Assembly (NCBI GenBank): GCA_020852515.1 | Contig: JADZAS010000013.1 | Coordinates: forward strand, 558,001-622,000 | Source of the DNA: Phycisphaerales bacterium | GTDB lineage: Bacteria; Planctomycetota; Phycisphaerae; Phycisphaerales; UBA5793 | Direction of reading: 5' to 3' | Length of the DNA: 64,000 nt | Shown here: positions 5,282 to 36,619 of the stretch, piece by piece | Numbering within the stretch: the first letter of the stretch is position 1 | Layout of the letters: every line of letters begins with the position of its first letter | Program-made: the position numbers and the translations under genes | The notes under the pieces: model-generated | The model's input: only the letters and a program-made list of their open reading frames with translations | What the model was told of the DNA's origin: nothing | The model's database searches: none

Positions 5282-6547
5282 ATGATCGGCGCCATGTTCC
5301 CATGGGGCTCGGCTGACATTCCACTGCTGCTCGTTCTGCCCGTCGCGGTAGTTTTCAGCGCTGCGTTCAGCGGGACGGAAACGGCGCTGTTCGGCCTGCG
5401 GGCCCACGAGCGCCGCGACCTGGCCGAGCAGAACGACGCCGTCTCCCGCGCCGCCGCGGCCTTGCTGGCCAACCCGCGCATGCTCCTCATCACGCTGCTG
5501 CTGGGCAACATGACCGTCAACGTCACCTACTTCGTCGTCTCCTCGGTGCTGCTGCTGCGCATCGACGACACGACCGCGGGCCAGGCGGAGGCGGTGCTCG
5601 CCTCGGTGGTCATGCTTGCGGCGATCATCCTCTTCGGCGAGGTGCTGCCCAAGCTGCTCGCCGCCGCGCACAGCCGGCTGTGGGTGCGCTGGACGGCGGT
5701 GCCGCTGCTGGCCCTGCACGGCTTTCTGGCGCCGGTTCGGCTGCCGCTGAGCCGCTTTATCATCGAGCCGCTCATTCGCCTGGGAGTCTCGCCCGGCCGC
5801 CTCGCCGCCATCAGCCACGACGAACTCGACTCGCTGCTGGAAATCTCCCGCGATGCGCACGTCATCGACCGCGATGAGTACGAACTGCTCAGCGACATCG
5901 TGCGCCTGAGCCGGCAGACGACGCGCGACATCATGACGCCGCGCGTGCGCATGGGCGCGTTTCCGATTGACGTGGAGCGTGGCCAGCTGCTCGACGAGGT
6001 TCGCCGGTCGCGCCTGGCGCGCGTGCCGATCTTCGAAGGCAGCCTGGACACGATCGTGGGGGTGCTCAACATGCGCCGGTTTCTGCTGGACGAGTCGCTC
6101 ACGGTGCCCGCAGCCATGGAGCCGCCTACGTTCATTCCCGAACTGGCCACGCTCGACCGCCTGCTCGAGCACTTCCGCACGACGCAGACGCGCCTGGCGC
6201 TGGTGGTCGATGAGTTCGGGCAGACGACGGGGATGGTGACGCTCGACGACGTGATGGGCGAGTTGTACGGCCGGGCCGCCGAGCACGCCTCTGACCGGCA
6301 CCTGGTCATGCTCATCGGCCTGGGCCGATGGATCATCGACGGCGATCTGAACATTCACGACTTTGCCGACGCATTCGCGATCGACATCGAGTCGCCGCGC
6401 ATCTCCACCGTGGCCGGGCTCGTCTCGCAGGAACTGCAGCGCGTGCCGAAGCTGGGCGATTCGGTGGTGGTCGGCGCGTATCGGCTGATGGTGCGCGCCG
6501 TGCGCCGTTCGCGGGCGGTGTCGGTCGAAGTGGAGGTGATCGAATGA
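5282..6547 (+). CDS. CNNM/HlyC-CorC family membrane protein with CBS pair
   Basis: 421 aa. The N-terminal ~190 residues are a CNNM (DUF21) membrane domain with the signature FSGTETALFGL near the start and FGEVLPK in the third helix region. A Bateman module of two CBS domains follows (VPIFEG..DTIVGVLN and VVDEFGQTTGMVTLDDVMGEL). The protein ends in a CorC/HlyC C-terminal domain (GLVSQELQRVPKLGDSVVV). The family is linked to divalent cation (Mg/Co) efflux. I chose ATG 5282 because the earlier in-frame ATG at 5180 lies inside a repeat hairpin; ATG 5294 is also possible. The stop overlaps the ATG of the next, paralogous gene (ATGA), so the two are translationally coupled and may form a hetero-oligomer. 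Confidence 0.88.
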   Translation: MIGAMFPWGSADIPLLLVLPVAVVFSAAFSGTETALFGLRAHERRDLAEQNDAVSRAAAALLANPRMLLITLLLGNMTVNVTYFVVSSVLLLRIDDTTAGQAEAVLASVVMLAAIILFGEVLPKLLAAAHSRLWVRWTAVPLLALHGFLAPVRLPLSRFIIEPLIRLGVSPGRLAAISHDELDSLLEISRDAHVIDRDEYELLSDIVRLSRQTTRDIMTPRVRMGAFPIDVERGQLLDEVRRSRLARVPIFEGSLDTIVGVLNMRRFLLDESLTVPAAMEPPTFIPELATLDRLLEHFRTTQTRLALVVDEFGQTTGMVTLDDVMGELYGRAAEHASDRHLVMLIGLGRWIIDGDLNIHDFADAFAIDIESPRISTVAGLVSQELQRVPKLGDSVVVGAYRLMVRAVRRSRAVSVEVEVIE

Positions 6548-7578
6548 GCGTCCTGACGATCGCCTCGGCCCCCGCTGCGGCGCCGGCGCCCGAGTGGTGG
6601 TGGTGGCTCGTGTATGCGGTGCTGTTCGCGGCGGGCCTGCTCGGCTCGGCATTGTTTTCCGGGCTTGAAACGGCCATCTACTCGATGAGCCGGCTGCGAC
6701 TGATCGTTCGCCAGAGCCGGGGCGAACGGGCCGCCGCCACGCTGCGCGGCGAGACTGCCGATGCGCAGCGCATGATTTCGACGCTGCTCATCTCCAACAA
6801 CATCTGCAATTTCGTCGTGTCGTTTGCCATCACGGCCATTCTGACGGCCGGGCTGCGATGGGGCGAAGCGAAGTCGATTATCGTGCAGGCTCTGCTGCTC
6901 ACGCCGGTGCTGTTCATTTTCGGCGAGACGATCCCCAAGGAGATCGGCCGGGCCCGCGCCGACGTCGTGGCATATCCGCTGGCGCCAATGCTGCGGTTCG
7001 TCCGTCGCATCTATTCGTGGACGGGCATCCTGTGGTTCTTTCAGAGCGCGAGCCGGCTGCTCTCGCAACTCGTGGGCGGCAGCATGACCGGCGCGGTGCT
7101 CAGCGCGCGGGCCCGCATTGCGGCGCTCATCGAAGAGGGCGTGGGGCACGGCACACTTTCGGCCCGGCAGACGGACATCGTGGACCGCGCGCTGTCGCTG
7201 CGGCAGATCACGGCCGGCAGCCGCATGGTGCCGTGGAAGCGCGTGCAGGCGCTCGATGCGCAGGACACGCTCGAGAGTCTGCGGCGGCGGCACGCGACGC
7301 TGGGCTATGCGCGCTATCCGGTGGTCGATCGCGGCGGCCGGGTGGTCGGCGTGATCGAACTCATTGACCTCATCGCCGCCGGACCAGGCGCGACGGCGGG
7401 CGAGGTCTGCCGGCCGGCGCCGTTCGCAGGGGAGTCGATGGATGCGCGCGCGGCGATCGCGATGCTGCGCAAGCTCGGCGCCGTGATGGGTGTGGTCGGC
7501 ACGCCCCAACAGCCGCGCGGCATCATCACCCTGCGCGGCCTCGTCGAACCATTGATGGCCGAAGAGGAAGGTGAGTGA
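6544..7578 (+). CDS. CNNM-family membrane protein with CBS pair, lacking the CorC domain
   Basis: 344 aa, starting at ATG 6544 inside the stop codon of the upstream paralogue. The CNNM membrane domain carries FSGLETAIYSMSRLR and FGETIPKEIGRARADVV. Two degenerate CBS motifs follow (YARYPVVDRGGRVVGVIELID and the last ~60 residues). The protein stops right after the CBS pair, so the CorC/HlyC C-terminal domain seen in its neighbour is absent. Paired CNNM genes of unequal length occur in many bacteria. A role in cation export or homeostasis is likely from the family, not from anything specific here. Confidence 0.85.
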   Translation: MSVLTIASAPAAAPAPEWWWWLVYAVLFAAGLLGSALFSGLETAIYSMSRLRLIVRQSRGERAAATLRGETADAQRMISTLLISNNICNFVVSFAITAILTAGLRWGEAKSIIVQALLLTPVLFIFGETIPKEIGRARADVVAYPLAPMLRFVRRIYSWTGILWFFQSASRLLSQLVGGSMTGAVLSARARIAALIEEGVGHGTLSARQTDIVDRALSLRQITAGSRMVPWKRVQALDAQDTLESLRRRHATLGYARYPVVDRGGRVVGVIELIDLIAAGPGATAGEVCRPAPFAGESMDARAAIAMLRKLGAVMGVVGTPQQPRGIITLRGLVEPLMAEEEGE

Positions 7579-7628
7579 TGCCTTGAGCCGAGAGCCCCGA
7601 CCGGGCACCACGCTCATCTACGTTCCGG

Positions 7629-8915
7629 TCATTCAACGATCGCCACATTGCTCGGCCTACACGACTCCACATCGAACAGCTGTATGGAGCCTCCGCATGC
7701 TCCTGCGCCGTGATCAACCACCATCTCACCACGCCCGGTCAAGTCGGAGAAGCCGGAATCGACGATGCGGAGGTACGCTCGCTCGAGGCCAAGCACCGTA
7801 CCGGCGCATGGCCCACTGGGAAGAGTGAAATTTCCAGGTCCCGCAGCATAGAGCAAATGCACCTCTCCTCCGGGCGTAGCGCAGGCCCAAGCCACGGCTC
7901 CATCGCCACCGCCCGGGCAACCGGAATAGAGGCTTCTCATGTGGATGGTCCCGGAGCAGCCATGGAATGCCCATGTATCCGCAAACACCTGCCGGGAGGC
8001 TTCGCCGCCGAAGAGGAGCATTTCGCCCCGTGCCCTGTCGAACGCCATAGCATGGGCCGATTGAGCATCCGGGCCGGAAAGTGAAATCCGAGTCCAGCGC
8101 TGGCCGTCCCACTCCCAAGTGTCGCCGAAAACTTCGGGACTGTCGTAGCCTCCGTAGAGGACCGACACTCCGCGAACGCTGTCGTACGCCATGGTGGCTT
8201 TATGGCGGCGCGATGGCCCTTCCTCTGACCTCAATGTCCAGGCGATTCCATCCCAGGCGTAGGTACTCCCTCCAGCGAAGAGAACGGTCTCGTTCCTCAT
8301 CTCGTCGAAATCCATCACATGGAAATAGGACACCGTCGGTCCATCATTGTCAATAAGAGTCCATTCCTGCCCGTTCCATTCCCATGTGTCCTTTCGCCGA
8401 AGCGTCCCGCTGTACCCGCCATAGAGCACGGCGACATGTCGAGCGCTGTCGTACGCCATGGCGGTCCCGAATCTTTTTGAAGGTCCCGTGTCGGCGACCT
8501 GTGTCCACTGGGCTCCGTTCCATTCCCATGTGTCATCATAAACGTCGCCATACTGGAGGCGTCCGCCGAACATGAGCACGACACCACGTTCGCTGTCGTA
8601 GACCATCGAGTGCTCGGCTCGCGGCGACGGACCGTCCTCCGCGACCAGCCTCCACTCAGTGCCATCCCACTCCCAGGTGTCTCCGAAATCCCCGCCGAAA
8701 TGCGAGCTTGAACCCCCGAAGAGAACGACGACCTCTCGATCGCTGTCATATGCCATCGCGGCGTCGATTCGCGCCGCCGGGCCAAGTCGAGACCGAAGTT
8801 CCCACTCGCCGCAACACTGAGCGCGCACAGCCGCAGCGGGACACAAAACACCGAAGAACATGGCGAGACTCGTGATGAGGGCGAGTCCGATTCTGCGCAG
8901 AGCAACCGGTTTCAT
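7629..8915 (-). CDS. Secreted Kelch-repeat protein with shared Cys-containing C-terminal domain
   Basis: 428 aa with an N-terminal signal peptide (LALITSLAMFFGVLCPAAA, cleavage near VRA-Q). About six Kelch motifs follow, each of the form AMAYDS.R...VLFGG......DTWEWDG..W, giving a six-bladed galactose-oxidase-like propeller at about residues 35-310. The last ~110 residues switch to the domain found on the FG-GAP proteins of this window: GCPGG, ATPGGEVHLLYA, LPSGPCAGTVLGLE, ACGGSIQLFDVESC and the end SNVAIVE. It is the only Kelch member of that set, which shows the tail is independent of propeller type. It is convergent with the CNNM pair, 50 bases away. Confidence 0.85.
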   Translation of the reverse strand: MKPVALRRIGLALITSLAMFFGVLCPAAAVRAQCCGEWELRSRLGPAARIDAAMAYDSDREVVVLFGGSSSHFGGDFGDTWEWDGTEWRLVAEDGPSPRAEHSMVYDSERGVVLMFGGRLQYGDVYDDTWEWNGAQWTQVADTGPSKRFGTAMAYDSARHVAVLYGGYSGTLRRKDTWEWNGQEWTLIDNDGPTVSYFHVMDFDEMRNETVLFAGGSTYAWDGIAWTLRSEEGPSRRHKATMAYDSVRGVSVLYGGYDSPEVFGDTWEWDGQRWTRISLSGPDAQSAHAMAFDRARGEMLLFGGEASRQVFADTWAFHGCSGTIHMRSLYSGCPGGGDGAVAWACATPGGEVHLLYAAGPGNFTLPSGPCAGTVLGLERAYLRIVDSGFSDLTGRGEMVVDHGAGACGGSIQLFDVESCRPSNVAIVE

Positions 8916-28300: not shown

Positions 28301-28573
28301 TTACTCTTCGTCAAAACCTCGCTCGACGAGTTCGATGAGCGCCTTCAGGGCCTCGCGGCAGTCTTGCCCGCTCACTTCGATGGTCAATTCCGTGCCTTTG
28401 GTGGCGGCGAGCATCATCATCTGCATGATCGACTTGCCATCGACCTTTTGCGCATCGCGGCGGACGCAGACGTCGGACTTGAAGTTGCTGGCGGTTTCGA
28501 CAAAGGACATCGCCGGACGGGCGTGGAGTCCGAGCCGGTTGCGGATGATCACTTTGGCCGTGGCGTTGGACAA
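28301..28573 (-). CDS. HPr-family phosphocarrier protein
   Basis: 90 aa. HPr passes phosphate from Enzyme I to EIIA proteins. The phosphorylated His is H17 in NRLGLHARPAM. A regulatory Ser (S48) is present in DGKSIMQMMML, so HPr kinase control is possible. I chose TTG 28573 because GGAGG lies 9 bases upstream and the product has the standard HPr length; the longer frame from 28651 adds a non-homologous Arg/Pro-rich leader. It is the last gene of an hpf-EIIA-HPr cluster with no sugar permease nearby, so regulation is its likely job. Confidence 0.9.
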   Translation of the reverse strand: MSNATAKVIIRNRLGLHARPAMSFVETASNFKSDVCVRRDAQKVDGKSIMQMMMLAATKGTELTIEVSGQDCREALKALIELVERGFDEE

Positions 28574-28582
28574 GCGCCGAAA

Positions 28583-28587
28583 CCTCC
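28583..28587 (-). promoter_or_regulatory. Ribosome binding site deciding the HPr TTG start
   Basis: The minus strand reads GGAGG here, 9 bases before TTG 28573. It supports the non-ATG start over the ATG at 28651. Confidence 0.6.
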
Positions 28588-28669
28588 GGGGGAGACTGCA
28601 TCTCGGCCGGCAGACACGAGCCGGCCGCTCGGGATGGCGTGCGATGATCACCTGACTCGGCGCGGCCGC

Positions 28670-29143
28670 TCAGCCCAGTTGCTGGTTATCCGCTTCGCGA
28701 ATCAGGGTAATGATGTCGTCCACGCTCGAAACCTGGCGCAGGAATCGACGGAACGTATCCTGGCTGAGGTTCTGGAAGATGATCTCCATGGCCCGCAGGT
28801 GATCTTCGGGCTGATCACCCGGGCTCAGCAGCAGCACCACGGAGTAGACCGGCTGACGGTCGAGGGCGTTGAAATCGACGCCCTTGCTGCTCACGCCGAT
28901 CGTGGCGGCCATGCGCTTGACCGACGCGTGCTTGACGTGAGGGACGGCGACGCCCTTGCCGAATCCCGTCGAGCCGCGCCGCTCGCGCTCGAGGATGGCC
29001 TCGATGAGTTCGTCGCGGTGACCTTTCTCAACGACGCCGGCGGCCAGCAGGGCGTCCACCAACTCCGCCACCACCTCGTCGCGGGTGACCGCCGCGAGAG
29101 ACGGCACCAGAGCCGACTCGACCATGATCTCGTGCAATTTCAT
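28670..29143 (-). CDS. PTS EIIA (fructose/nitrogen-type, PtsN-like)
   Basis: 157 aa, soluble, single EIIA type-2 domain. The phosphoryl-accepting His is H69 in GFGKGVAVPHVKHASV; RERRGSTG precedes it as in PtsN. No EIIB or EIIC gene is nearby. The placement between HPF and HPr mirrors the hpf-ptsN-npr part of the proteobacterial rpoN region, which points to a regulatory nitrogen-PTS-like role rather than sugar uptake. Start ATG 29143. Confidence 0.9.
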   Translation of the reverse strand: MKLHEIMVESALVPSLAAVTRDEVVAELVDALLAAGVVEKGHRDELIEAILERERRGSTGFGKGVAVPHVKHASVKRMAATIGVSSKGVDFNALDRQPVYSVVLLLSPGDQPEDHLRAMEIIFQNLSQDTFRRFLRQVSSVDDIITLIREADNQQLG

Positions 29144-29174
29144 TGGCGATTGTACCCCGATTCCCAGCCCCGCA

Positions 29175-29477
29175 TCAGCCCGGATGCTTGCGGTTGCGCG
29201 TCATCTCCTTGTACTCCGCCAGCTGCCGGCTCAACTTATCGACGACGGAGTCCAGGCAGGCATGATAGTCCATGCCGTGCTCGCGACCGATGAACGGATC
29301 ATGCCGGTCCACGTGGGCGATGACTTCGATCTCGAATTCGCGGCCGGGCTTGTCGATGACGACATCCACCTGCTGGATGCGATCGTAATAGCGGGTGAGC
29401 CGGTCGCACTTCTTGGAGGCGTAATCCTCCATGGCGGCACTGACGTCGAGATGCTTTCCCGTCACAGTGATCTGCAT
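29175..29477 (-). CDS. hpf: Ribosome hibernation promoting factor, short form
   Basis: 100 aa. It has the HPF/RaiA beta-alpha-beta-beta-beta-alpha pattern: MQITVTGKHLDVSAAMEDYA, then KKCDRLTRYYDRIQQVDVVI, then DYHACLDSVVDKLSRQLAEY. It binds the 30S subunit and silences ribosomes in starvation. The length is that of short HPF, without the dimerising C-terminal domain of long HPF. EIIA follows 31 bases downstream in the same direction, and HPr after that. Confidence 0.92.
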   Translation of the reverse strand: MQITVTGKHLDVSAAMEDYASKKCDRLTRYYDRIQQVDVVIDKPGREFEIEVIAHVDRHDPFIGREHGMDYHACLDSVVDKLSRQLAEYKEMTRNRKHPG

Positions 29478-31448: not shown

Positions 31449-32387
31449 TCAGTGCATCACCACACTGGCGATTCCCAACGCGCCAACGAGGCAACTGATC
31501 ACGCCGTTTAGCGTGAAGAAGGCGAGTTGGATGCGGCCCGTCGCGCCCCCGGCCGTCACCGCGTGCTCGACGATGAGCAGCACGACGACCACGGCGACAC
31601 CGATGGCAAACAGCGAGCCGAAGCGTGGATCAATGACGACGATCGCCGTGAGCGAACCGGCGCTGATTGCGTGCAGCAGCCTGCTGATCCACAGCGCCGG
31701 CCCGACGCCGAGGCGACTAGGCAGGCTGTGCAGCCGCTGCTGCCGATCGACCTGCACATCCTGCAGGGCGTAGACGACGTCAAAGCCGGCCACCCAGCAG
31801 AGCACGTTCAGACTCAGCAACCACAGCGCCGGCTGGGCCGCGAGAGCCGCAGGCTCGATGGCCAGCGCGGCGGCGAGCGGCGAGATCGCCAGCGACGAAC
31901 CCAAAAAGACATGGCACATCCACGTCCATCGCTTCATCCAGCCGTACGAGCCAATCCACGCAAGCACGGGGATTGACAGCACCGTCGGCCACCAGTTGTC
32001 AAACACGAAGCCGAATGCGACGCAGCAGACGATGAACACGCCCGCCGACCAGAGCAGCGCCATGCGCGCGTGGCGCAGCGCCACGCGGCCGCTGGGCAGC
32101 GCCCGCCCGCTGGTGCGCGGGTTGAGCGCGTCGATGTCGCGATCGATGATGCGGTTGGCGAGCATGGCGAACGTGCGGGCGCTGACCATGCAGACGACAA
32201 TCAACGCCATCTGCCCGGCAAAGCGGGACCAGGCGCCGCCCGCCGGCCGGGCCATGAATGCGGCGAGCAGCGCAAAGGGCAGAGCGAAAAGACTGTGGCT
32301 GAGTTTGATATCTGCCGCCAGCGCCTTGAGCGACGCACCCGGACCCGGGGAATCGGCAAGCGAGGTGGCTGGAGCCGCGGAAGCCAT
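31449..32387 (-). CDS. mqnP: UbiA-family prenyltransferase, probable MqnP
   Basis: 312 aa, about eight or nine membrane helices. The first Asp-rich Mg-diphosphate site is ANRIIDRDIDALNPRT and the second YALQDVQVDRQQRLHSLPS. The phrase KLSHSLFALPFALLAA and the FDVVYALQDVQVD...LHSLPSRLG block match the UbiA-like enzymes annotated as MqnP in futalosine-pathway genomes, which prenylate the naphthoate ring. 4-hydroxybenzoate prenyltransferase is the alternative. It is divergent from the phenolic-lipid-type operon (52-base gap), so I cannot exclude that it prenylates a product of that operon. Confidence 0.85.
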   Translation of the reverse strand: MASAAPATSLADSPGPGASLKALAADIKLSHSLFALPFALLAAFMARPAGGAWSRFAGQMALIVVCMVSARTFAMLANRIIDRDIDALNPRTSGRALPSGRVALRHARMALLWSAGVFIVCCVAFGFVFDNWWPTVLSIPVLAWIGSYGWMKRWTWMCHVFLGSSLAISPLAAALAIEPAALAAQPALWLLSLNVLCWVAGFDVVYALQDVQVDRQQRLHSLPSRLGVGPALWISRLLHAISAGSLTAIVVIDPRFGSLFAIGVAVVVVLLIVEHAVTAGGATGRIQLAFFTLNGVISCLVGALGIASVVMH

Positions 32388-32439: not shown

Positions 32440-33168
32440 GTGAGCACGCTCGCGCCCAATCTGCGGCAGCGGCATCGCGAGCCGGAGTGGATGGACCAGC
32501 CGGATCTCGATCCGTCGCTGCACGATCGGGCTCTCACGGCGCTGGCGCGACTGAACCGCTGGGCCGGCAGCGCGCGGATCGTCTGGCCGGCGATCCGAAG
32601 CGTTGCAAGAAGCATGCCCGACGAGACCTGCCGCGTGCTCGACATCGCCACCGGCGCCGCAGACGTGCCCCTCGCCCTGTCGGAACGCGCCGCCGGCGCC
32701 GATCTCGACGTCCAGTTCACCGCGATCGATGTCAGCGCGCACGCCATAGCGCACGGCCGAAAGCGCGCCGACGCGTCCGGCGAGACGATCGATTTTCGCC
32801 GCTGCGATGTGCTGCGCGACCCATGGCCCGCGGGAGAGTTCGACGTCGTCATGTGCTCGCTTTTCCTGCACCACCTCGACGAGGCGCAGGCGATTCAACT
32901 GCTCGAGATGATGCACGCGGCGGCGCGGCGGCTGGTGGTCGTCAGCGATCTGCGGCGCTGCTCGTGCGGCCTGTGGCTCACGCAGATCGCAGCACACGCG
33001 CTCACGCGCTGCCCCGTCGTGCGCGCCGACGGGCCGCGATCGGTGCGCGCCGCGTTCACGATTGATGAAGCCGCTCAACTGGCCCGGCAGGCCGGGTGGA
33101 AGGGCGCCCAGGCGCAGCGGGCCTGGCCGTTTCGATTCCTGCTTACCTGCAAGAAGGACGAGCAATGA
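32440..33168 (+). CDS. SAM-dependent methyltransferase of a type III PKS operon (SrsB-like)
   Basis: 242 aa class I methyltransferase. SAM motif I is VLDIATGAADVPLAL, the acidic post-I site is FTAIDVSAHAI, and motif IV is FDVVMCSLFLHHLDE. The start is uncertain. GTG 32440 keeps the RQRHREPEWMDQPDLD segment that similar enzymes have before the Rossmann fold, but its ribosome site (GGAGG) overlaps it; ATG 32491 with GGAG upstream is the alternative. Its stop overlaps the start of the flavoprotein gene. In Streptomyces srsABC a methyltransferase acts on the alkylresorcinol made by the type III PKS; the same role is likely here. Confidence 0.82.
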   Translation: MSTLAPNLRQRHREPEWMDQPDLDPSLHDRALTALARLNRWAGSARIVWPAIRSVARSMPDETCRVLDIATGAADVPLALSERAAGADLDVQFTAIDVSAHAIAHGRKRADASGETIDFRRCDVLRDPWPAGEFDVVMCSLFLHHLDEAQAIQLLEMMHAAARRLVVVSDLRRCSCGLWLTQIAAHALTRCPVVRADGPRSVRAAFTIDEAAQLARQAGWKGAQAQRAWPFRFLLTCKKDEQ

Positions 33169-34391
33169 TGCCCGGCGCGATCGAAGGAAGCATCACGGCG
33201 GAAGACGCAGCCCGATCGACCTGGGATGCGATCATCATCGGCGCCGGGCCGGCCGGGTGCGTGACGGCAACGCTGCTCGCCCGCGGCGGGTTTGACGTGC
33301 TGCTCGTCGATCGAGCGGCGTTTCCTCGCGACAAGACGTGCGGGTGCTGCGTCGCCGCGTCCGCCATAGCCGCACTGTCGAGGCTCGATCTTGAGCAGGT
33401 GCTGGACCGCTGTCACGCCGCGCCGATGGATCGCTTCGATCTGCGCTCGGCGGACCAGGCCCTCGAGGCGCCGCTCCCGCCCGGGCGCGTGCTGTCGCGG
33501 CGGCAATTCGACGCGGCGCTGGTTGACGAGTCGTTGTCCGCAGGGGCAGCATTTCTGCCGCACTGCCTCGCAAGCACTGCCGATTCGGAAGAGTCGTATC
33601 GCCACGTGCGGCTGACTGCAGATGGAAACAATGTCGATGCGAAGGCGAGACTCGTGATCGCCGCGGGAGGGCTCGGCTTCTCCTTCGACGTCGACCCGCG
33701 ACATGCCCGCGCGCGCAGTCGCCCCTGGCGCCGCTCGCGACTGGGCGCTGCGACCCTGGTTTCAGCACACGGTATCGACCTGCCGCACGGCACGGTGCGC
33801 ATGCTGGTGGGCAGCCGCGGCTACGTCGGGATGGCGCGAATCGAGGACGGTCGTATCGCCATCGCCGGCGCGCTTGACCCGACGCGGGTGCGCACGTGCG
33901 GCGGACTGGCGGCGGCCGCACTGGAAGTGTTCGAGCAATGCGCGCACGCGCCTCCCGATGATCTCGCGGCAGCGCACTGGATGGGCGCGCCTGAACTGAC
34001 CCGGCGCCCGCGGCGCATCGCCGGGCAGCGCGTGCTGGCCGTCGGCGATGCAGCCGGCTTCGTCGAGCCGTTTACGGGTGAAGGCATCGCCTGGGCCATC
34101 GAAAGCGCGTCGGCCGCCGCCGGGCTGGCCGCAGAGTTTCTCGCTCGCAGCCAGGCGCCGTGGAGCCAGACCCTGGAATCGCGGTGGTCGCGAGCGCACG
34201 CTGCGCTCCTCGCCGCGCGGCAGGTGCGCTGCCGCGTCATCGCCGAAGCGCTGCGTCATCGCCTGGTGCAGTCGGGCTGCATGCGGCTCGGCCGGGCGCT
34301 GCCTGCACTGTCGCGGTTCATTGTCAACCGCTTGCACGCCCCGATGCCGGCGATGGGAAACAGCAATCGGCTGGCGCGAGGCGGCACGTGA
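33165..34391 (+). CDS. FAD-dependent oxidoreductase of the geranylgeranyl-reductase/hydroxylase type (SrsC-like)
   Basis: 408 aa. The FAD dinucleotide site is WDAIIIGAGPAGCVTATLLA. FPRDKTCGC follows, a hallmark of the geranylgeranyl reductase group. The second FAD motif is VLAVGDAAGFVEPFTGEGI. The start ATG 33165 overlaps the methyltransferase stop (ATGA) and has AAGAAGGA upstream; the next codon is also ATG. Its own stop overlaps the PKS start (GTGA). In a polyketide operon it probably hydroxylates the aromatic ring to a quinol or quinone; double-bond reduction of a lipid chain is the alternative. Confidence 0.85.
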   Translation: MMPGAIEGSITAEDAARSTWDAIIIGAGPAGCVTATLLARGGFDVLLVDRAAFPRDKTCGCCVAASAIAALSRLDLEQVLDRCHAAPMDRFDLRSADQALEAPLPPGRVLSRRQFDAALVDESLSAGAAFLPHCLASTADSEESYRHVRLTADGNNVDAKARLVIAAGGLGFSFDVDPRHARARSRPWRRSRLGAATLVSAHGIDLPHGTVRMLVGSRGYVGMARIEDGRIAIAGALDPTRVRTCGGLAAAALEVFEQCAHAPPDDLAAAHWMGAPELTRRPRRIAGQRVLAVGDAAGFVEPFTGEGIAWAIESASAAAGLAAEFLARSQAPWSQTLESRWSRAHAALLAARQVRCRVIAEALRHRLVQSGCMRLGRALPALSRFIVNRLHAPMPAMGNSNRLARGGT

Positions 34392-35527
34392 CTCCGCGCC
34401 TGACGGGCATCGGGCTGGCCACGCCCCCGGGCGGGCTCGACCAAGCCGAGGCGCTGCGCCTCGCCGAGCAGTGCTGCGCCGCCTCGTCTGATGAAGCCGA
34501 TCGCCTGCGGCGCCTTTTTGAGCACTGCGGCGTGCAGAGGCGCCAGTTCGTCGTCGCGCCCGAGCTGGCGCAGACGGAGAGCGCGATGCGCCGCAACGGC
34601 CACGGCGCCAGTCAGACGGATGAACCCGTGGTGCCGTTCTTCCCGCCGCGACTCCATGACGAAGATCTCGGGCCGAGCACCGCCCAGCGCCTGGCCGTGT
34701 ATGACCTCTGGGCGAGCCGACTGGCGGGCCAGGCCGCGGCGGCGGCGCTGGCGCAGGCCGGCTGTGCCGCGGCGCGCATCACGCACCTGATCACCGTCTC
34801 GTGCACCGGCATGCATGCGCCTGGCGTGGACATCGCGCTCATCGACGAGCTCGATCTTCCCCGGAGCGTCAGGCGCGCCAACATCGGCTTCATGGGATGC
34901 CACGCGGCGATCAACGCCCTGCGCCTCGCGGCCGATGCCTGCCGGGTCCAGACCGACTCGGTCGTGCTGGTGGTGTGCGTTGAACTGTGCAGCGTGCACT
35001 TTCAGTATCGCGGCGATGGCGACCGCCTGCTGGCCAACGCGCTCTTTGCCGACGGCGCCGCTGCGGCGGTGGTGTCGAATGACCCTTCGCGCCCGGGTCA
35101 GTCGCCGCTCGCGATGGGCGACTTCGCATCGGTCGTCGTGCCGGATTCGCGCGAGTGCATGTCGTGGAGCATCGGCGATCACGGCTTTGAGATGCGACTG
35201 TCGCTCGATGTGCCGGCGCGGATTCGCGAATGCGCGAAGCCTTGGATGGAGCAGTGGCTGGCGCGGCGGGGCCTGGCGATCAGCGACGTGGGATCGTGGG
35301 CGGTGCATCCCGGCGGGCCGCGCATCCTTGACGCCTTCGCGGCCGCGCTGGACCTGCCCCCGGCGGCGCTGCAGGCCTCGCGCGATGTGCTGGGGCGGTT
35401 GGGCAACATGTCTTCGCCGACGGTGCTGTTCATACTCGATGAGCTGTTGCGCCGCCGGGCGCCGCGGCCGGCCGTGGCGATCGCGTTCGGCCCGGGTCTG
35501 ACGATCGAAGCGGCCCTGCTGGAGTAG
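34388..35527 (+). CDS. Type III polyketide synthase (chalcone/alkylresorcinol synthase family)
   Basis: 379 aa from GTG 34388, which overlaps the previous stop. The full catalytic triad is visible: C171 in IGFMGCHAAINAL, H307 in AVHPGGPRIL and N340 in RLGNMSSPT. THLITVSCTGMHAPGVD and FADGAAAAVVS are also typical. These enzymes extend an acyl-CoA starter with malonyl-CoA and cyclise it to alkylresorcinols or alkylpyrones. With the coupled methyltransferase and flavoprotein, a methylated and oxidised phenolic lipid is the best guess. It acts in the cytoplasm, with the product likely going to a membrane. Confidence 0.93.
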   Translation: MTPRLTGIGLATPPGGLDQAEALRLAEQCCAASSDEADRLRRLFEHCGVQRRQFVVAPELAQTESAMRRNGHGASQTDEPVVPFFPPRLHDEDLGPSTAQRLAVYDLWASRLAGQAAAAALAQAGCAAARITHLITVSCTGMHAPGVDIALIDELDLPRSVRRANIGFMGCHAAINALRLAADACRVQTDSVVLVVCVELCSVHFQYRGDGDRLLANALFADGAAAAVVSNDPSRPGQSPLAMGDFASVVVPDSRECMSWSIGDHGFEMRLSLDVPARIRECAKPWMEQWLARRGLAISDVGSWAVHPGGPRILDAFAAALDLPPAALQASRDVLGRLGNMSSPTVLFILDELLRRRAPRPAVAIAFGPGLTIEAALLE

Positions 35528-35641: not shown

Positions 35642-36619
35642 ATGAGCAGCACGCCAATCAGCGATTTCATCCGAACCCACTACCGCCACTTCAACGCCGC
35701 GGCCCTCGTCGATGCAGCCGAGGCGTATCGAAAGCACCTCGACGGCGGCGGCAGGATGTTCGTCACGCTCGCCGGGGCGATGAGCACGGCCGAACTGGGC
35801 GTGTCCCTGGCGGAGATGATCCGCCAGGACAAGGTGCACGGAATCTGCTGCACAGGGGCCAACCTCGAAGAGGACATCTTCAATCTCGTGGCGCACGAGC
35901 ACTACGTCCGCATCCCCCACTACCGCCAGCTCACCCCGGCCGACGAGCAGAGGCTGCTCGAGAAGCACCTCAATCGAGTCACCGACACGTGCATTCCTGA
36001 AGAGGAAGCGATCCGCCGGCTTGAAGGCGCGGTGCTCGATCACTGGCTGAAGTCGGACAAGGCTGGGCGACGGATGTTCCCGCACGAGTTCTTTTTCGAG
36101 GTGCTGCTCAGCGGCGCGCTCGAAGAGCACTACCAGATCGACCCGAAGGATTCGTGGCTGCTGGCGGCAGCGCAAAAGAACCTGCCCGTCTTCGTGCCCG
36201 GCTGGGAAGACTCGACGCTTGGCAACATCTTCGCCTCGCACGTCATCACCGGCGAGATCAAGAACTCGACGACGATGCGCGGCGGCATCGACTACATGAT
36301 CGAACTGGCGAAGTGGTACACCGAGCTGACGGGCAAGCACTCGCTGGGCTTCTTCCAGATCGGCGGAGGCATCGCGGGCGACTTTCCCATCTGCGTCGTG
36401 CCGATGCTCCACCAGGATCTCGGCCGCACCGGCGTGCCGCTGTGGGGCTACTTCTGCCAGATCAGCGATTCAACGACGAGTTACGGCTCGTACAGCGGCG
36501 CCGTGCCCAACGAAAAAATCACCTGGGGCAAACTCGCCGAAAAAACGCCCAAGTTCGTCATCGAGTCCGACGCAACCATCGTCGCGCCGCTCATCTTCGC
36601 GTACGTCCTGGGGTGGTGA
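35642..36619 (+). CDS. Deoxyhypusine synthase-like protein
   Basis: 325 aa. Deoxyhypusine synthase fold: TLAGAMSTAELGVSLAEMIR, ICCTGANLEEDIFNLVAH, VFVPGWEDSTLGN, GGIDYMIELAKWY, IGGGIAGDFPI and the catalytic-type lysine K297 in EKITWGKLAEKTPKF. The eukaryotic and archaeal enzyme moves an aminobutyl group from spermidine (NAD-dependent) to eIF5A. Bacteria lack that target, and homologues are thought to act on small polyamines (for example to homospermidine). No polyamine gene is adjacent. It follows the polyketide synthase by 114 bases in the same direction, probably with its own promoter. Confidence 0.88.
   Translation: MSSTPISDFIRTHYRHFNAAALVDAAEAYRKHLDGGGRMFVTLAGAMSTAELGVSLAEMIRQDKVHGICCTGANLEEDIFNLVAHEHYVRIPHYRQLTPADEQRLLEKHLNRVTDTCIPEEEAIRRLEGAVLDHWLKSDKAGRRMFPHEFFFEVLLSGALEEHYQIDPKDSWLLAAAQKNLPVFVPGWEDSTLGNIFASHVITGEIKNSTTMRGGIDYMIELAKWYTELTGKHSLGFFQIGGGIAGDFPICVVPMLHQDLGRTGVPLWGYFCQISDSTTSYGSYSGAVPNEKITWGKLAEKTPKFVIESDATIVAPLIFAYVLGW

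Follow-up and report, generated by a model that had tools for sequence, protein, structure and literature searches.

Three overlapping genes in the window, the 64,000-nucleotide stretch of DNA analysed here, encode a methyltransferase, an FAD enzyme and a type III polyketide synthase (PKS), and raise the question of which family of operons they belong to and what compound they would make. They lie on one strand in the order methyltransferase, FAD enzyme, PKS, with the PKS gene last. The first-pass annotation had described them as an srsABC-like operon in a probable planctomycete; it placed all three genes correctly, and the overlaps it named, ATGA (33165) and GTGA (34388), were confirmed by reading. 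We interpret the trio as a hierridin-type (hidABC-like) alkylresorcinol operon whose product would be a decorated membrane phenolic lipid, a reading to which we give a probability of roughly 85%.

Table. Coordinates of the trio, its junctions and its neighbours in the window.
Feature	Position	Strand	Remarks
Class I SAM-dependent methyltransferase (UbiE-like, HidA position)	32440..33168	+	GTG start
FAD-dependent oxidoreductase (geranylgeranyl-reductase-like/FAD monooxygenase fold, HidB position)	33165..34391	+	ATG start at 33165
Type III polyketide synthase (predicted HidC-like alkylresorcinol synthase)	34388..35527	+	GTG start at 34388
ATGA start/stop overlap, methyltransferase/FAD enzyme junction	33165..33168	+	Read directly
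GTGA start/stop overlap, FAD enzyme/PKS junction	34388..34391	+	Read directly
UbiA-family prenyltransferase, probably menaquinone-type (MqnP-like)	31449..32387	-	Divergent neighbour, judged outside the operon
Deoxyhypusine-synthase-like protein	35642..36619	+	Downstream neighbour, judged outside the operon; PF01916, 149 bits

The interpretation of the three genes as an operon is supported. Start/stop overlaps at both junctions also occur in the three congeners read (L032, L033, L034), and because both recur there, the coupling of the trio appears to be conserved within the genus rather than a product of chance. A promoter scan returned no sigma-70-type site, and terminator-like sites were slightly more numerous than in shuffled sequence. 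The genome comprises 4.72 Mb in 39 contigs, in which a single type III PKS was found. Its planctomycetal origin was borne out as well: a congener with 70% PKS identity is Phycisphaerales bacterium UBA5793, of the class Phycisphaerae. Elsewhere in the window, genes for HPr, a PtsN-like IIA protein and a hibernation-promoting factor cluster on the minus strand (28301-29477), an arrangement that resembles the nitrogen-PTS group.

Operons of this kind have been described from planctomycetes. Milke et al. 2024 reported 96 type III PKS genes in 131 planctomycetal genomes; 58 of the 96 stand last, after genes for a methyltransferase and an FAD oxidoreductase, and the authors related this operon to hidABC of Cyanobium (PMC10896814). 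Expressed in C. glutamicum, the PKSs of Gimesia maris, Rhodopirellula baltica and Stieleria maiorica gave pentadecyl- and/or heptadecylresorcinols (C15/C17), and co-expression of the Gimesia methyltransferase and FAD enzyme with the PKS led to a product with one more methyl group, probably attached to carbon (PMC10896814). The same three genes are carried by cyanobacterial hierridin-like clusters (PMC8086630). By its protein families and gene order, the trio of the window is a predicted member of this hidABC-like/planctomycetal alkylresorcinol operon. The suggestion that the product may be a compound not known from this group is thus wrong for the phylum, given the 58 planctomycetal operons and the products made heterologously (PMC10896814). 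For the class Phycisphaerae no product has been shown so far, and the planctomycete compounds reported to date all come from the class Planctomycetia (2025 review, PMC12078418).

We surveyed the distribution of the trio among related genomes and in a named genome collection. A PKS was present in 54 of 101 genomes among relatives and in 54 of 248 genomes sampled across the class, and profile matches placed homologues of the methyltransferase and the FAD enzyme next to the PKS in the relatives' loci. A lack of conservation among relatives had been named as grounds for refuting the operon, but the trio proved to be conserved: contiguous methyltransferase, FAD enzyme and PKS genes in the same order were found in 19 of the 20 same-order loci read and, among the best 80 loci from the named collection, in 57, these 80 being top matches rather than a random sample and including three that repeat loci already read. 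Among the 75 of these best 80 loci with at least 2 kb of upstream sequence, 56 carried the trio, 11 the PKS alone, five all three genes but not contiguous in that order, and three only one partner.

Carriers of the trio include Gimesia, Aphanothece, Synechococcus, Halomonas and Vreelandella, with four cyanobacterial genomes among them, as well as metagenome-assembled genomes (MAGs) assigned to Acidobacteriota, Gemmatimonadota, Elusimicrobiota and Hydrogenedentota. The presence of the same trio in Halomonas sp. McH1-25 and Vreelandella rituensis (L088, L100) suggests transfer into gammaproteobacteria. Other arrangements were also encountered: in a Gemmataceae MAG (L110, 5007-7969) the PKS gene comes first, followed by those for the methyltransferase and the FAD enzyme, which recalls the second arrangement known from cyanobacteria, hidC-hidA-hidB, and in two further loci (L111, L128) the PKS lies ~2.5 kb downstream of the methyltransferase and FAD enzyme genes.

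Both chalcone/stilbene synthase domains, PF00195 and PF02797, are recognised in the PKS above their cut-offs. Its catalytic triad C171-H307-N340, described as intact in the first-pass annotation, is so, and is invariant across 99 aligned sequences. Identity to the cyanobacterial relatives is 43-55%, and in the alignment the active-site positions 139, 171, 201, 204, 207, 217, 220, 258, 260, 267, 269, 307 and 340 carry the same residues here as in the Gimesia, Rhodopirellula and cyanobacterial enzymes. Position 205, which corresponds to the acyl-tunnel residue A209 of PKS18, is occupied by Phe in the enzyme of the window and by Gln in that of Gimesia. In a quick tree, the PKS of the window and those of three congeners formed one fully supported branch and the cyanobacterial enzymes grouped elsewhere; the deep forks of this tree are weak.

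PKS18 of Mycobacterium tuberculosis bears on another possible outcome, in which the PKS would mainly make tri- or tetraketide alkylpyrones by lactonisation, as PKS18 does, and the methyltransferase would O-methylate the pyrone. The mode of cyclisation cannot be read from sequence, and chains of the PKS18 type were the top phmmer matches to the PKS among solved structures. Like our enzyme, PKS18 is a type III PKS with a long acyl tunnel, and it has the catalytic triad and Cys205 (C201 here) in common with it, but it makes alkylpyrones and differs at N208 (H204 here) and A209 (F205 here), the active-site residues of PKS18 being taken from PMC6274091. In the quick tree it also stood apart from the family, at the end of a very long branch, and the operon-borne planctomycetal enzymes that were tested gave resorcinols (PMC10896814). 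An alkylpyrone product is therefore improbable.

The methyltransferase decides against the assignment that the first-pass annotation had put forward. The srsABC operon of Streptomyces griseus resembles the trio in that the alkylresorcinol of a type III PKS is modified by a methyltransferase and a flavin enzyme; SrsB is a relative of isoprenylcysteine carboxyl methyltransferases (ICMT), and SrsC is a monooxygenase (PMC6669644). The methyltransferase of the window belongs to another family, class I: it matches PF13649 (53.7 bits, above cut-off) and related class I domains, and reached 199 bits against PRK06202, under the cut-off of 243. The profile comparison gave no ICMT match for it, and the sole PF04140 match in the genome lies under the cut-off and on another contig. 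That the genes form a true srsABC operon making methylated alkylquinones as in S. griseus is thus very improbable, although the PKS, methyltransferase and flavoprotein functions are shared and a hydroxylase could give a quinone; the Gimesia trio, for its part, formed no quinone in C. glutamicum (PMC10896814). Membership in srsABC was rejected on the basis of the methyltransferase family and the PF04140 result. The label "srsABC-like" therefore holds for the broad functions and fails for family membership, a distinction drawn from the family description of SrsB.

On the question of an SrsC-type aromatic hydroxylase the profiles are mixed: the FAD enzyme matches PF01494 (FAD_binding_3) above cut-off, but its best NCBIfam family is TIGR02032, of the geranylgeranyl reductase superfamily, under cut-off. 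In an alignment of 24 relatives, its GxGxxG and EPFTGEG motifs vary little or not at all. At 14-23% identity, the solved folds nearest to its AlphaFold model (mean pLDDT 90.6) are those of FAD halogenases (phenol and pyrrole halogenases among them), of a geranylgeranyl-reductase-like protein and of aromatic hydroxylases. The phenol and pyrrole halogenases among these folds would fit an enzyme that chlorinates the ring, as in hierridin C. We find this hardly credible: where CmlS has WVWMIP, the FAD enzyme has YVGMAR, and GYxG is conserved throughout its family in the aligned relatives. Identity as a halogenase was rejected, since the WxWxIP motif of halogenases is absent.

The divergent UbiA-family gene beside the trio had been proposed to supply a prenyl chain. 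The possibility that this enzyme prenylates the alkylresorcinol draws on its position, since in each of the four trio-carrying members of the genus the gene lies next to the trio and points away from it, and on a known cyanobacterial hierridin-like cluster with a prenyltransferase (PMC8086630). Outside the genus, however, UbiA is not found near the trio. A single UbiA relative per genome occurs in 37 of 41 genomes, many of them without a PKS (G002, G005, G008, G009 and G013 among these), and the genome of the window has two genes of the MqnA/MqnD family above cut-off alongside its five UbiA-family genes. The protein itself scores 223.5 bits against TIGR01475, above cut-off, and 165-189 bits against three MqnP models, under cut-off. 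In the congener G002 (L059, G002:C165:8000-20000, ~5624-7631), the UbiA gene directly adjoins the deoxyhypusine-synthase-like gene; the trio is absent and the stretch contains no N.

A part for UbiA in tailoring the lipid was rejected on this conservation pattern and the trio-free site of G002, and we regard it as extremely improbable; most likely, UbiA is a menaquinone gene. Because the two flanking genes adjoin each other in G002, the trio appears to have been acquired or lost here as a self-contained block, which points to gain or loss of the three genes as a unit in Phycisphaerales. The deoxyhypusine-synthase-like protein is 90-97% identical between congeners, and is thus far more conserved than the trio.

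Within the alkylresorcinol reading, the product is most likely a long-chain 5-alkylresorcinol that is methylated and probably hydroxylated, as judged by analogy; the phenolic lipid foreseen in the first-pass annotation is supported by homology to expressed enzymes. The mechanism follows from the published planctomycetal enzymes. The PKS would load a long-chain fatty acyl thioester, probably C16-C18, and add three malonyl units to give a tetraketide, which an aldol condensation would close to the 5-alkylresorcinol. Ring methylation by the methyltransferase, at a carbon or an oxygen, would follow, and the FAD enzyme would probably add a hydroxyl group.

Several points weigh against this reading. 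Outside the genus, PKS identity to family members is only ~38-55%, so that no expressed enzyme is close; the PKSs of the genus form a well-supported branch of their own, with a residue at position 205 that differs from Gimesia; two of the six planctomycetal PKSs expressed gave no product, both of them lacking the operon; and in the sole published co-expression no effect of the FAD enzyme was detected (PMC10896814). It is conceivable, if unlikely, that the phenolic lipid made by the operon in this Phycisphaerales genus carries other decorations, being for instance a methylated alkylhydroquinone or a quinone that acts in redox processes or in the membrane; such a lipid would be the first product demonstrated for the class.

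Overall, these results indicate that the alkylresorcinol operon, known from cultivated Planctomycetia, is common among uncultivated Phycisphaerales as well. As far as the cited descriptions go, hidABC of Cyanobium sp. LEGE 06113 (Costa et al. 2019) has the methyltransferase, oxidoreductase and type III PKS in this order (PMC10896814, PMC8086630); the sequences compared here were those of cyanobacterial relatives with the trio. In the same accounts, HidA O-methylates both hydroxyls, whereas the Gimesia methyltransferase probably C-methylates. The planctomycetal operon (PMC10896814) comes from the same phylum and agrees with the trio in its three protein families and in their order, which ends with the PKS; it differs in that its products were shown for other families and not for Phycisphaerae, and the PKS of the window stands on a separate genus branch.
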